Assembly: GCA_947448415.1 (NCBI GenBank)
Contig: CANFMT010000007.1
Span: 32,616-96,615 of the forward strand
Origin: Burkholderiaceae bacterium
Lineage (GTDB): Bacteria > Pseudomonadota > Gammaproteobacteria > Burkholderiales > Burkholderiaceae
Length of the DNA stretch: 64,000 nucleotides
Direction of reading: 5' to 3'
The notes under the pieces are model-generated. The model saw only the letters and a program-made list of their open reading frames with translations. It made no database searches and was not told where the DNA came from. A program made the position numbers and the translations under genes. Positions 37,311-42,991 of the stretch are shown here, piece by piece; position 1 is the first letter of the stretch, and each line of letters opens with the position of its first letter.

Positions 37311-37337
37311 TTAGCACTCGCGTGTAGGGAGTGCTGA
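37311..37337. promoter_or_regulatory. CIRCE operator (HrcA-binding) upstream of groES-groEL
   Basis: TTAGCACTC-N9-GAGTGCTGA, one mismatch from consensus TTAGCACTC-N9-GAGTGCTAA. Confidence 0.9.
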
Positions 37338-37511
37338 TTATATAGGTCTGATTCCATGGATTTCAAGGGCGGATCACCATAAATTCTTTGAGGATTTAGC
37401 TGCTATCTATACTGGAGACAGCTGAGTAGGTCTTTTCCTACAAATAAATCAGCCTTAAGCCCTTACTCCTCGAATCCGTCCTGCCTAGACTGGACAGTCA
37501 CCGATTGGAGA

Positions 37512-38363
37512 ATGCTGATGAGCCCGAAATCCCGGCTGTACACGCTTGTAAAGGCATGGAAGAACAAACCCTTCCAGGAAGTACGAGACGCCTGTGGCGC
37601 ACCTTGGCTAGGCATTAGCAGCCAAGCTCTTGAAGAACATCAATCCTGGTCCAAGCGACAAGTGATTAGCCATGAACCCATTTTTAATTGCAGGGGGACA
37701 AAACTGACCAGCTCTTTATTTAGACCATTACTCGCTGCCACTGATATGCAGTTTCTGCGCCTATTTATGGAGGGCTTAGATGCGATTTCCTACTGGCATC
37801 GTAGTGGACGCTTTATACCTGGAATTTTGCCCGTGCCCACCCACATCATTGCCTCAAGTGAATATGTTGATGCTATGAGTGACCTGATTTTGAATTCGCG
37901 GTTACCAGTAGGCTTGGTTGCCATTGGACTTCCATCTATTCCAGATAGCAGCTTAGTGAATTCACATAAAGAAGGTTTGCAGCGTATGCGACGCCTTGGG
38001 GCATTAATTCATTTTCTCAATTTCTCAGGTAGCGTAGACCAAATGCAATGGATTGAAGAAATGCAAATGGAGGGTATTCATATTGACATGAGCCAACTAA
38101 GAAAAGAAACCTTGCCTATTAATGCGTTATCTCAAATTAGGCGATCTACATATTCATCCACACAAATTTATGCCAGCAACATTGCGCTCGTAAAAGATAT
38201 TGAAAATGCCGCAGAGTGGCAGATCGATCACTGCTACGGTGGCTTGATGATGCCACCGCTTAGCAGGCATCAGACTTTACAAATTAACGATAGCAGAATT
38301 GCTAAGGCTATTTTTTCGCTGCACCCTCATCAACACCCAAACCAAAACGGAGATAAGCAATGA
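37512..38363 (+). CDS. Degenerate EAL-domain protein (BvgR-like, likely catalytically inactive)
   Basis: HEPIFNCRG, RRLGALIHFLNFSG (for DDFG), GIHIDMSQL (for KID), YASNIALVKD (for AEGVET), HCYGGLMMPPL (for QGY..P); EAL signature absent. Confidence 0.65.
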   Translation: MLMSPKSRLYTLVKAWKNKPFQEVRDACGAPWLGISSQALEEHQSWSKRQVISHEPIFNCRGTKLTSSLFRPLLAATDMQFLRLFMEGLDAISYWHRSGRFIPGILPVPTHIIASSEYVDAMSDLILNSRLPVGLVAIGLPSIPDSSLVNSHKEGLQRMRRLGALIHFLNFSGSVDQMQWIEEMQMEGIHIDMSQLRKETLPINALSQIRRSTYSSTQIYASNIALVKDIENAAEWQIDHCYGGLMMPPLSRHQTLQINDSRIAKAIFSLHPHQHPNQNGDKQ

Positions 38364-38983
38364 GAAAACGCGTGATGTTGGTAGATGACCATCCGGCTAT
38401 GCTGATGGCCCTTAAGAGTATGTTGCAAGATCAGTTGTTGTTTGAAATCGTAGGACAAGCTCAAAATGGCGAAGAATGCCTAAGATCCATGAAAGAAGTC
38501 AATCCAAACATGGTGATTCTGGATCTGGATATGCCTAAGACGGATGGGTTTGACGTTATACGACGTATTGGCTTAATGCATCCAGATGTTCGAATGCTGG
38601 TGCTATCAAGCATGGATGAAGCAGTCTATGGAGGTAGGGTTCGCTCTCTAGGTGGGCATGGATTTGTCAATAAAACAGCCGGGGCAGATGTCATCCTTGC
38701 GGCCTGTGTAGCGATTTCTCAAGGCTATAACTTCTTCACTCACGGAAAGAATGGTAATAGCTCGCTGAGTGATAACGATAAGCTCGCCCTAATATCTGAT
38801 CGCGAATTACAAGTCATGAAATATCTTGGTAAGGGCAACACTAACCAGCAAATATCAGACATGCTTCACATCAGTAATAAGACGGTGGCTACGTACAAAA
38901 CAAGGGTATTTGATAAGTTGGGAATTAATAATATTGCTGACCTAATCTTGTTCTGTCGTATGAATAAGATTATTGAAAGCTAA
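38360..38983 (+). CDS. NarL/LuxR-type response regulator (BvgA/EvgA-like)
   Basis: REC: LVDDHPAM..ILDLDMPKTDG; HTH: LISDRELQVMKYLGKGNTNQQISDMLHISNKTVATYKTRVFDKLGINN; ATGA overlap with the upstream gene. Confidence 0.93.
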   Translation: MRKRVMLVDDHPAMLMALKSMLQDQLLFEIVGQAQNGEECLRSMKEVNPNMVILDLDMPKTDGFDVIRRIGLMHPDVRMLVLSSMDEAVYGGRVRSLGGHGFVNKTAGADVILAACVAISQGYNFFTHGKNGNSSLSDNDKLALISDRELQVMKYLGKGNTNQQISDMLHISNKTVATYKTRVFDKLGINNIADLILFCRMNKIIES

Positions 38984-38990
38984 ATTCAGT

Positions 38991-41414
38991 ATGCATCGAT
39001 TCATTAAAAATTCAACAGCCCTTGTTTTTTTCTTGGTAAATGGGCTTAGCCTTGCACAGCCATTAAGCGTCCAAGAGCAACAGTGGATCGATGCTCACCC
39101 TATTGTGCGATTTAGCATTCACGAAAAATATGCGTCCTACTTACAAAACACTAAGAGTGACACAGGCTCTGGCGTACTACATAGAGTTCTAGAAAAACTT
39201 AGCGGATTTACTCAACAACAATTTTTCCCGATATGGAGAAAGACCGATCAAGAGGGCCTTCAACAACTAGAGAAAGGTGATGTTGATTTCATCATCGATC
39301 CTCCACCGTTTGATGAGGAATACCTAAAGTTTGGGTCTTTATCTGAAGCAATCTTTTGGGGACAGGATGTCATTCTCACAAAAAACAATGCTCAAACCTC
39401 TATCAACCCTACTAATATCGTTTATTTTGATCGCGGCTTCGAAAGCCCGCCCTTTATCTCTAAGCAGCAGGTAAATGTTTCTAGTCACACCGAGAAATTA
39501 GCCTTTGATTTGCTCAAAAATGATGTTGAAGCTTTGATTTTGCCTATGCGCCTTGCACAGCAATTAATTAAAAAATTCAATGCATCGGAACTTCAAATAG
39601 ATGGTTATTACAGTAGAGAGCCATTTGCCTATCGCTGGCTCATTTCCCATCAGGATGCTCCGCTCAACAATATCCTTGGACGCTTCTTAGAAAACTTAGA
39701 TCCAATTGAATCACGTCATTTGTTTTCTGTTGACACTTATAGCCCTCAAACCAAAGCGCAATGGGGTGTATTTCCCTGGCTTATAGCGCTGACGCTATTA
39801 GTTATTACTTCTTTAATGCTTTGGCGCTGGAAAAAAACACAAGTCCTTCAGGAGCAAATTACGACAAACTTAATTTCTTCAAAAGAGATGGCGGAAAAAG
39901 CCAACGCAGCTAAATCTGCCTTTTTAGCAACCATGAGTCATGAAATTCGCACCCCCATGAATGCTATATTGGGCGTACAAGAGTTATTGCTCACTAGCCA
40001 AAAATTTCCTGCCAAGGATAAGCTACTTCTCAGGAGCGCCCATGCTTCAGCCGAATCCCTTCTTGGAATTTTGAATCAAGTACTAGACCTCTCAAAAATT
40101 GAAGCGGGCAAGTTGACGCTTAATCTAGAACCCTACTGCCTCAATACTCTCATTGATGATATTGACTCAACCTTTGCAACAGTAGCTAGTAAACAAAAAC
40201 TCATACTGCACACCAGTAAAGATTCTCGTATTGCCCCGGTTCTCATGATTGACGCTCTTCGCTTACGTCAAATTTTGCAAAACCTACTAAGTAATGCCAT
40301 TAAATTTACTGAATATGGTGAGATATATTTCTCTATCAGCGTATTAGCGGATGACCACGCTGGTCAACTTATTGAGTTTCGAGTGATCGATACGGGTATC
40401 GGCATGCGCAAAGAAGAAATAAAACTGGCACTTCAAGCCTTTGAGCAGGTACCAGGTAAAAATGATCAGCAAAATGGCACTGGACTAGGGCTCACCATTA
40501 CCAATCACCTAGTGAACTCAATGAATAGCCAACTCTATTTTGAAAGCGATCCTGGATTTGGAACCAACATACATTTCAGCATCGCATTTCCTCGAACCAG
40601 TTTAGCTGCCTCTAGAGTGGGCGCAATGCAAGAAGTTGCACTAACTTCTAAAAAAATGATCTCAAAGCGTTCTTTATCTGAGAATCGTCCACTGCACGCA
40701 TTAGTAGTAGAGGACCATCCAGCAAGCCGTCAAATAATATCGCTACAACTACAAGCTTTTGGTATAGAAGTAGATGTCTGTGAAAGTGCATTTATGGCTA
40801 TTGAACTTCTTTCACAAAAACACTTTGATTTACTCATTACAGATCAGTCTGTACCAGGCATGCAGGGATCTGAACTAGCTAAAAAAATTCGTTGTCTAGG
40901 ATTTTCAGAGCTAATCATTATTGGAGTAACGGCAGATATCTATGCTCTTGATTCTCGACACCACTTTATGACGGCCGGTATGAATGGGGTTCTTATAAAA
41001 CCCCTCAGCTTAATCGGTCTAGAAAACGAACTTACCCGCTATTTTGAACTGACTGAAATCCGCAACAAAGATGAGTTAATAGATGCCCAGGACGAATATT
41101 CATTCGATGCATTCTCAAATCTATTGCGTGATAACCCCAATCAAGTTTTAGTCATATTGGAAGAGATTAAAAAAGTTCATGATGAATCAATAGAGATTCT
41201 AGAAAATGGGGCTATTAATTCAAATATATTCAATAGTCTGGTTCATAAAGTCAAAGGTGGTGCACAACTGCTTGGCGCTCAAAGCTTTATTAGCTGTTGC
41301 AATCGCCTTGAAGAGCCAGGTCCCCTACCCGAAAAAATAGAAGCTTTCCAGAAATTACTTGAAGAACAAAACCAAATCATTTTGCAATATCAGGCCAAGC
41401 ATCAAGAAACTTAG
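38991..41414 (+). CDS. BvgS/EvgS-like hybrid sensor kinase: periplasmic VFT-like domain, TM, HisKA, HATPase, REC, HPt
   Basis: Signal peptide; SVQEQQWIDAHPIVRFSIHEKYASYL; ATMSHEIRTPMNAILGVQELL; NAIKFTEYG, GTGLGLTI; LLITDQSVPGMQG; HPt LVHKVKGGAQLLGA. Confidence 0.9.
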   Translation: MHRFIKNSTALVFFLVNGLSLAQPLSVQEQQWIDAHPIVRFSIHEKYASYLQNTKSDTGSGVLHRVLEKLSGFTQQQFFPIWRKTDQEGLQQLEKGDVDFIIDPPPFDEEYLKFGSLSEAIFWGQDVILTKNNAQTSINPTNIVYFDRGFESPPFISKQQVNVSSHTEKLAFDLLKNDVEALILPMRLAQQLIKKFNASELQIDGYYSREPFAYRWLISHQDAPLNNILGRFLENLDPIESRHLFSVDTYSPQTKAQWGVFPWLIALTLLVITSLMLWRWKKTQVLQEQITTNLISSKEMAEKANAAKSAFLATMSHEIRTPMNAILGVQELLLTSQKFPAKDKLLLRSAHASAESLLGILNQVLDLSKIEAGKLTLNLEPYCLNTLIDDIDSTFATVASKQKLILHTSKDSRIAPVLMIDALRLRQILQNLLSNAIKFTEYGEIYFSISVLADDHAGQLIEFRVIDTGIGMRKEEIKLALQAFEQVPGKNDQQNGTGLGLTITNHLVNSMNSQLYFESDPGFGTNIHFSIAFPRTSLAASRVGAMQEVALTSKKMISKRSLSENRPLHALVVEDHPASRQIISLQLQAFGIEVDVCESAFMAIELLSQKHFDLLITDQSVPGMQGSELAKKIRCLGFSELIIIGVTADIYALDSRHHFMTAGMNGVLIKPLSLIGLENELTRYFELTEIRNKDELIDAQDEYSFDAFSNLLRDNPNQVLVILEEIKKVHDESIEILENGAINSNIFNSLVHKVKGGAQLLGAQSFISCCNRLEEPGPLPEKIEAFQKLLEEQNQIILQYQAKHQET

Positions 41415-41455: not shown

Positions 41456-42991
41456 ATGCGCCACTTTTTATCCTTCCGTCACTTCGCAATAGCAATCCTA
41501 ACGATTGGTGCGGGTTTAATTGCTTTACCAGTAAAAGCTAACGATGTCAGTAAATCTATTCCTAAGGCTATTGCTAATACCCTAGAGCGCAATCAGATTC
41601 CAAAGGATTCAGTCAGCATTTCAGTTATTGAAATTGAACCTAGTCAAGATAGAAAATATAGCGCTAAGACTGTTTTAGAGTGGCGTGCGACAGAGGCGAT
41701 GAATCCTGCCTCAACTATGAAGCTTCTCACCACTCTTTCTGGCTTGGATATTCTAGGGCCCAAGTATCGCTGGCATACCAATATTTATACCGATGGCTTA
41801 ATTCGCCAAGGCACTCTCAAAGGCAATCTTTACTTACAGGGTACCGGTGACCCCAAGTTAATTCCTGAAGAGCTCGCTAAACTCATGAAAGACTTGCAGG
41901 ATCTTGGCATTCAGAAGATCGATGGAAATTTATTCTTTGATCGAAGCGCCTACTCGCCGAGCGTAATGGAACACAACACTATTGATGGTGAGTCCTTAAG
42001 AGCCTATAACGTTCCACCCGACCCCTTGCTATATGCATTTAGAACACTCTCTTTTCAGCTAGGAAAATCACGCACAGCGGACTTTATTGATATTACCTAT
42101 ACCCCTTCTCTATCGGGATTAAAAATCGACAATCAAATGCAATTGGTTGATCGATCATGTGATAACTGGAAGAGCAACATCCAATTTAATCTTGATCCAG
42201 AGAGTGGAAATGGCACTAGCCAGTTGCTAACTGCAAAATTTTCTGGTGCTTTTCCAAATAATTGCAAAGGAGTCAATTACAACGTAGTTGCCTTGGATGC
42301 CAACACTTTTTTAACTCAAGGCTTCGCAGCAGCATGGGAACTAGCTGGCGGCACCTGGGTGCAGCCGCCCATTGGAAAAAGTGGCACGGTACCGCTTGCA
42401 GCGCGTCTTTTACTTCAATTTGAGGGTATCACTCTTGGCGATGATGTGCAAGACATCAATAAATACTCAAACAATGTCATGGCCCGCCAACTACTACTAA
42501 CCCTGGCGTTAGAAAAGATGGGGAAACCTGCTACTACGGCTAATGGAGATTTAGTCATTCAAAGCTGGCTCAAACAAAATGGTCTTAATTTCCCTAGCCT
42601 AGTAATTGAAAATGGTTCAGGACTTTCGCGCAATGAGGCAATCTCGGCAAGCAATATGAATCAACTTCTTTTGACTGCACGCAATCTACCTGCTGGCGAT
42701 ATTTTCTACAATAGCCTTCCTATTGCTGGGACTGATGGCACTATGCGTAATCGCCTAATGACACAGCTGCGGAAATTTTTACACTTAAAGAAAAAACCTG
42801 AAGCAAGAATTAAGACGGGATCACTAGCTGATGTACGTGCTATCTCGGGTTATGTACTAAGCAAATCAGGCAAGATGTATGCAGTAACCTCTTTCATTAA
42901 CCATCCCAATGCCTGGAGAGGTCTGGAAGCTCACGATCAACTATTAACGTGGCTACTTGAAGATGGGCCGGAACCAAAGCAAGCGCGCTGA
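41456..42991 (+). CDS. dacB: D-alanyl-D-alanine carboxypeptidase/endopeptidase PBP4
   Basis: NPASTMKLLTTLSGLDILGPKYRWHTNIY (SxxK), YSNNVMARQLLL (SxN), RIKTGSLADVRAISGYV (KTG). Confidence 0.94.
   Translation: MRHFLSFRHFAIAILTIGAGLIALPVKANDVSKSIPKAIANTLERNQIPKDSVSISVIEIEPSQDRKYSAKTVLEWRATEAMNPASTMKLLTTLSGLDILGPKYRWHTNIYTDGLIRQGTLKGNLYLQGTGDPKLIPEELAKLMKDLQDLGIQKIDGNLFFDRSAYSPSVMEHNTIDGESLRAYNVPPDPLLYAFRTLSFQLGKSRTADFIDITYTPSLSGLKIDNQMQLVDRSCDNWKSNIQFNLDPESGNGTSQLLTAKFSGAFPNNCKGVNYNVVALDANTFLTQGFAAAWELAGGTWVQPPIGKSGTVPLAARLLLQFEGITLGDDVQDINKYSNNVMARQLLLTLALEKMGKPATTANGDLVIQSWLKQNGLNFPSLVIENGSGLSRNEAISASNMNQLLLTARNLPAGDIFYNSLPIAGTDGTMRNRLMTQLRKFLHLKKKPEARIKTGSLADVRAISGYVLSKSGKMYAVTSFINHPNAWRGLEAHDQLLTWLLEDGPEPKQAR

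Follow-up and report, generated by a model that had tools for sequence, protein, structure and literature searches.

A conserved phosphorelay operon encoding a degenerate EAL protein in Polynucleobacter

Three adjacent genes in a Burkholderiaceae genome of 2.09 Mb on balance appear to form an operon for a phosphorelay of the BvgS/EvgS/Roc superfamily that controls its own expression and goes back to the ancestor of Polynucleobacter. Judged from its sequence, the operon encodes first a catalytically dead EAL-fold protein without a receiver (REC) domain, then a NarL/EvgA-type regulator with its phospho-acceptor Asp, and then a kinase that has a single VFT2 of the BvgS/EvgS type on the outer side of the membrane and an intact H317-D618-H752 relay on the inner side. 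A conserved palindrome lies upstream. This palindrome, and the conservation of synonymous sites at both ends of the EAL-like gene, are new here.

The window, the whole stretch of 64,000 nucleotides that was analysed, had been said in an earlier note to carry three co-directional genes between 37512 and 41414, the first two overlapping by ATGA. All three reading frames are present there on the + strand, and the overlap lies at 38360-38363. The EAL-like gene (37512..38363, +; 283 aa, with the EAL fold at about 37671-38279) is followed by the response regulator gene (38360..38983, +; 207 aa, with the phospho-Asp D55 at 38522-38524) and the hybrid sensor kinase gene (38991..41414, +). The kinase probably begins at ATG 38991, not at TTG 38973; the ATG is the better start and gives a signal peptide (MHRFIKNSTALVFFLVNGLSLAQ) and 807 residues. 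Since it lies seven bases past the regulator stop, the regulator and kinase genes do not overlap. The intergenic region before the operon is bounded by a CIRCE element (TTAGCACTC-N9-GAGTGC, 37311..37334), which belongs to the divergent groESL promoter. In the loci read, the next gene downstream is dacB (41456..42991, +), for D-alanyl-D-alanine carboxypeptidase, and the 41-nt gap between kinase and dacB holds no terminator-like site.

Polynucleobacter are free-living lake bacteria. The EAL-like protein was found in 137 of 151 genomes of the genus, and among the relatives in 72 loci of the named collection, all that carry a genus name are Polynucleobacter, the rest being Burkholderiaceae or betaproteobacterial metagenome-assembled genomes; on this ground the genome studied here is assigned to Polynucleobacter. 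The operon is conserved genus-wide, and its place between groESL and dacB does not vary among the loci read: divergent groESL is followed by the EAL-like gene, regulator, kinase and dacB even where the EAL-like proteins are only 25-30% identical, with insertions between groES and the EAL-like gene in some deep members. The closest relative, L085, shares 88% identity in the EAL-like protein, 100% in the regulator and 73% in the kinase. Purifying selection acts on the EAL-like gene, with a dN/dS of 0.085-0.14 over six relatives; for regulator and kinase, synonymous sites are mostly saturated. This ratio and the genus-wide synteny exclude chance as an explanation of the observed locus.

The palindrome, GTAGG-N6-CCTAC, is at 37426..37441, between the CIRCE element and the EAL-like start, and lies no more than 140 nt from the start in 61 of 65 named-collection loci. 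The exact pattern GTAGGNNNNTTCCTAC occurs in all 28 genomes searched, in 27 of them at a single place, the operon; the exception, G144, has a second. Such a site, upstream of the operon and nowhere else in nearly every genome searched, suggests that the operon is autoregulated through it, and its own response regulator is the proposed binding protein. The half-site TTTCCTA equals the high-affinity heptad of BvgA (PMC4314077), but here the halves face outwards. TTCYTAC halves are found in the evgA promoter region of Escherichia coli.

That the palindrome is the site of a different regulator, or a signal of another kind, and the operon's regulator acts elsewhere, is rather unlikely. In its favour, one deep clade (L057, L058, L065, L066 and L069) has the operon but no palindrome, and the regulator persists where the EAL-like and kinase genes decay. 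Against this stand the tie of the palindrome to this one operon and the resemblance of its half-site to BvgA and EvgA sites (PMC4314077 for BvgA).

Further targets were sought by pattern only. The pattern read backwards, a control whose dinucleotide make-up differs, gave more one-mismatch matches than the real pattern, and the motif is thus rare elsewhere. The second site in G144 and one-mismatch sites in G000 and G036 share one position, just after ligA; behind them come, in this order, genes for a FAD-NAD(P)-binding protein, a Bcr/CflA transporter and a NUDIX protein. This is the best candidate for a second target. The near copy in G000 is at G000:C20:13840-13855 (L357, L394). Weaker sites occupy this position in G118 and G137, with other genes behind them. 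A wider regulon was considered and set aside: of the near-match sites read, the one downstream of ligA recurs in several genomes and most others look single. A further orthologous pair of near matches (L366, L377) consists of half-site-like matches only.

Between the palindrome and the regulator gene, conservation extends to positions that do not alter the protein. The first such stretch (37442..37727, +) takes in the leader and about the first 72 codons. The distance from box to start is identical in 58 of 63 loci. Codons 1-12 of the EAL-like gene show a synonymous codon diversity of 0.03 and those up to codon 72 one of 0.17-0.34, compared with about 0.5 later. The second (38304..38363, in a wider delimitation 38304-38400; +) lies at the end of the EAL-like gene, before the regulator start, where diversity falls to 0.04 over codons 265-276 against about 0.5. 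In the regulator gene it is low mainly in the first 12 codons (0.16), and the kinase gene shows no dip in the windows scored. These values, from 34 closely related sequences, are descriptive and carry no test of significance. Signals for translation, an internal promoter or an RNA element may underlie the conserved stretches. A coding reading of the leader was rejected on account of a single base inserted ahead of the start in one group. A hairpin in the leader, formed by CTCCAATC and GATTGGAG across the Shine-Dalgarno sequence, was rejected after its 5' arm proved to be lost in L302-L304, L307 and L311. Alignments of the leader and of the EAL-gene end revealed no conserved hairpin accounting for the conservation, and a search of Rfam gave nothing credible.

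The first gene product had been described as a degenerate EAL protein, and this description holds. Its AlphaFold2 model (pLDDT 80.5) has an EAL fold, the best PDB folds being EAL domains (E 1.2e-12, probability 1). Pfam matched no family to it; a profile of the family reaches ordinary EAL proteins, and the best PDB sequence match is RocR (2.4e-5), with the next match close (8.8e-5). A tree of EAL domains neither places the family, whose stem is 2.75, nor settles whether it arose from REC-EAL proteins. When the alignment was read together with the secondary structure of the model, S67-S68-L69-F70-R71 aligned to EALLR; YQP had become HEP, Asn Pro, DDFG LNFS, KID HID, AEG ASN and QG YG. The protein does not carry the catalytic and metal residues of an active EAL phosphodiesterase (E, N, E, D, K, E, Q) and, as BvgR does, represents a stand-alone EAL protein without phosphodiesterase residues. 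No enzymatic activity is expected of it, and binding of c-di-GMP is unlikely.

The last point bears on the idea that the protein is a c-di-GMP-binding effector in the style of FimX or LapD, which couples the relay to c-di-GMP. Degenerate EAL domains are able to bind the nucleotide (PMC12805831), and the same genome encodes two other EAL proteins with canonical motifs, so turnover of c-di-GMP is likely in this cell. In this protein, however, the positions of the EAL Glu, the Asn, DDFG and AEG are changed, a segment after the EAL strand is missing, and the window protein has Glu for the Gln of YQP, a position not conserved within the family. An effector of this kind is improbable.

The regulator was confirmed as NarL-type, with a receiver domain (PF00072, E 3.5e-22) and a GerE helix-turn-helix (3.5e-18). 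Its best PDB match is EvgA, and in a tree it groups with EvgA and FimZ (94/96), not with UvrY or RcsB.

The kinase likewise proved to be a periplasmic-VFT hybrid with HisKA, HATPase, REC and HPt domains, although Pfam scored Hpt below threshold and did not call the VFT, which a profile search does find. The single VFT is encoded at 39060..39755 (+) and is homologous to the membrane-proximal VFT2 of BvgS and EvgS. When its profile was searched against the whole PDB, only EvgS (1.6e-7) and BvgS (3.9e-7) matched, both at VFT2, and it matches the VFT2 positions in BvgS-like kinases. The structural model of this domain is poor (pLDDT 70.6), and the top Foldseek hit is 3mpl with a TM of 0.25. The membrane segment (259-277) ends near residue 277 and HisKA starts near 307, with no PAS domain between. 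The relay residues H317, D618 and H752 are conserved, and the kinase tails read all have the Hpt His.

In a tree of the kinase core, the Polynucleobacter kinases form one clade (100/100). The earlier note had named as refuting a kinase outside the BvgS/EvgS clade together with a 283-aa protein without an EAL fold; neither was seen. In a tree with EvgS and BvgS-like kinases, not BvgS itself, the clade did not fall outside this set but grouped with it (98/87), apart from BarA, TorS, ArcB and RcsC. The tree leaves the nearest sister of the clade unresolved. Constraining the Polynucleobacter kinases to form a clade solely with L224 and L225, the two that come nearest to BvgS, was rejected (p-AU 0.004), as was such a clade with BarA (p-AU 0.004); holding a stricter BvgS/EvgS set together was not rejected (p-AU 0.11). 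Members of the BvgS family have one to five VFTs (PMC4352136), so the kinase falls within the family. By sequence it is a member of the BvgS/EvgS/Roc superfamily and, with one VFT, no PAS and the exclusive clade rejected, is not a BvgS orthologue.

Some deep Polynucleobacter kinases (L057-L069, L060-L064, L074 and L084) lack the VFT and keep the membrane anchor and the relay domains. Since species with and without the VFT form two sister clades in a tree of neighbouring genes, one change suffices, and the presence of VFTs in the BvgS-like outgroup kinases favours loss. The regulator gene tree disagrees with the neighbouring genes, making the species without VFT paraphyletic.

The closer parallel among known systems is the three-component Roc design rather than Bvg. 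In Pseudomonas aeruginosa, Roc1/Sad (RocS1, RocA1, RocR) brings together the genes for a BvgS-homologous hybrid kinase, a NarL-type regulator and an EAL protein (PMC3083521; PMC12051241), the same three kinds of component as here, RocR being also the best sequence match. RocR, however, is an active phosphodiesterase with a REC domain, whereas the Polynucleobacter protein has neither REC nor catalytic residues, so that no REC-EAL phosphodiesterase serves as the second regulator. RocS1 has two SBP domains and a PAS compared with one VFT and no PAS, and in Polynucleobacter the EAL gene comes first. The Roc/Sad arrangement also occurs in other Burkholderiales, where L224, L236 and L239 have a REC-EAL gene next to those for a BvgS-like kinase and NarL-type regulator; L240 has the regulator and REC-EAL, with the kinase absent from the stretch read. 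The REC-EAL protein at L224:12107-13441 is partly degenerate, with EIQ for EAL and QADPAN for DDFGTG. This suggests, but does not show, a path from a RocR-like enzyme to a dead EAL protein.

The earlier note had likened the locus to Bvg. The likeness stands for the family of the kinase with its HK-REC-HPt architecture, the NarL-type regulator, the nearby degenerate EAL protein and the TTTCCTA half-site; it fails as orthology of the kinase. A true orthologue of bvgR-bvgA-bvgS, in which the EAL-like gene and BvgR descend from the same degenerate EAL gene, is very improbable. BvgR likewise lacks 12 of 13 phosphodiesterase residues (PMC11537037) and is BvgA-activated (PMC12805831), and the kinases share a superfamily. 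BvgS, by contrast, has two VFTs and a PAS, and the Polynucleobacter kinase is not sister to those nearest BvgS; bvgR lies downstream of bvgS in Bordetella (PMC11537037), whereas the Polynucleobacter operon opens with the EAL gene. Beyond the genus, searches of the family and order samples with the EAL-like profile turned up nothing but ordinary EAL proteins. A 99-aa PDB segment of BvgS found no relative in the genome contig collection and reached 43% identity at best in 399 genomes of the order, which therefore include no classical Bordetella. EvgAS of E. coli provides the best PDB match for the regulator and the VFT profile and shares the REC-HPt tail; it differs in having no EAL gene beside it and two VFTs in EvgS. 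EvgS also has a PAS. YdiV/RflP of enteric bacteria, a stand-alone degenerate EAL protein that works by protein contact, on FlhD, is not known to be encoded with a two-component system; it resembles the Polynucleobacter protein by description only.

In the favoured reading, an autoregulated phosphorelay, a small periplasmic ligand would gate the VFT, and phosphate would pass from H317 to D618, H752 and then D55 of the regulator, which when phosphorylated would bind the palindrome and drive the operon. The EAL-like protein would occupy the place of RocR in a Roc-like system. Being predicted not to hydrolyse, and probably not to bind, c-di-GMP, it would act by protein-protein contact, most likely as feedback on the regulator or kinase, in the manner of YdiV on FlhD and as proposed for BvgR. 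A nearly closed circuit is a doubtful extension of this scheme: the regulator's main strong site would be its own promoter, the dead EAL protein its main product and a dedicated partner of regulator or kinase, and an additional RNA or DNA element would cover both ends of the EAL-like gene.

It has yet to be settled how BvgR and other degenerate EAL proteins act (PMC12805831). The Polynucleobacter protein is built like a signal-degrading enzyme without the active-site residues, which makes the operon a good place to ask what dead enzymes of this kind do. It is encoded with its phosphorelay throughout a free-living, small-genome lineage, some members of which have naturally lost the sensor domain or one of the genes, so its partner and target can be sought genetically or biochemically without a pathogen.

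That the EAL-like gene is a functionless remnant in decay is scarcely credible on present evidence: it is frameshifted in several small genomes, but in most it is intact, under purifying selection and with residues invariant across the genus. G069, G084, G095, G132 and G135 have no EAL-like gene and no regulator match at the threshold used. G103 lacks the regulator and has fragments of the other two genes, and G017 and G106 keep an intact regulator gene beside broken EAL-like and kinase genes. In L049, L050, L051 and L052 the EAL-like gene is frameshifted, in L049 and L051 beside a broken kinase gene, and the regulator is intact at 92-95% identity. Such preservation in reduced genomes speaks against the favoured scheme and argues that the regulator has a role without the EAL-like protein and the kinase.
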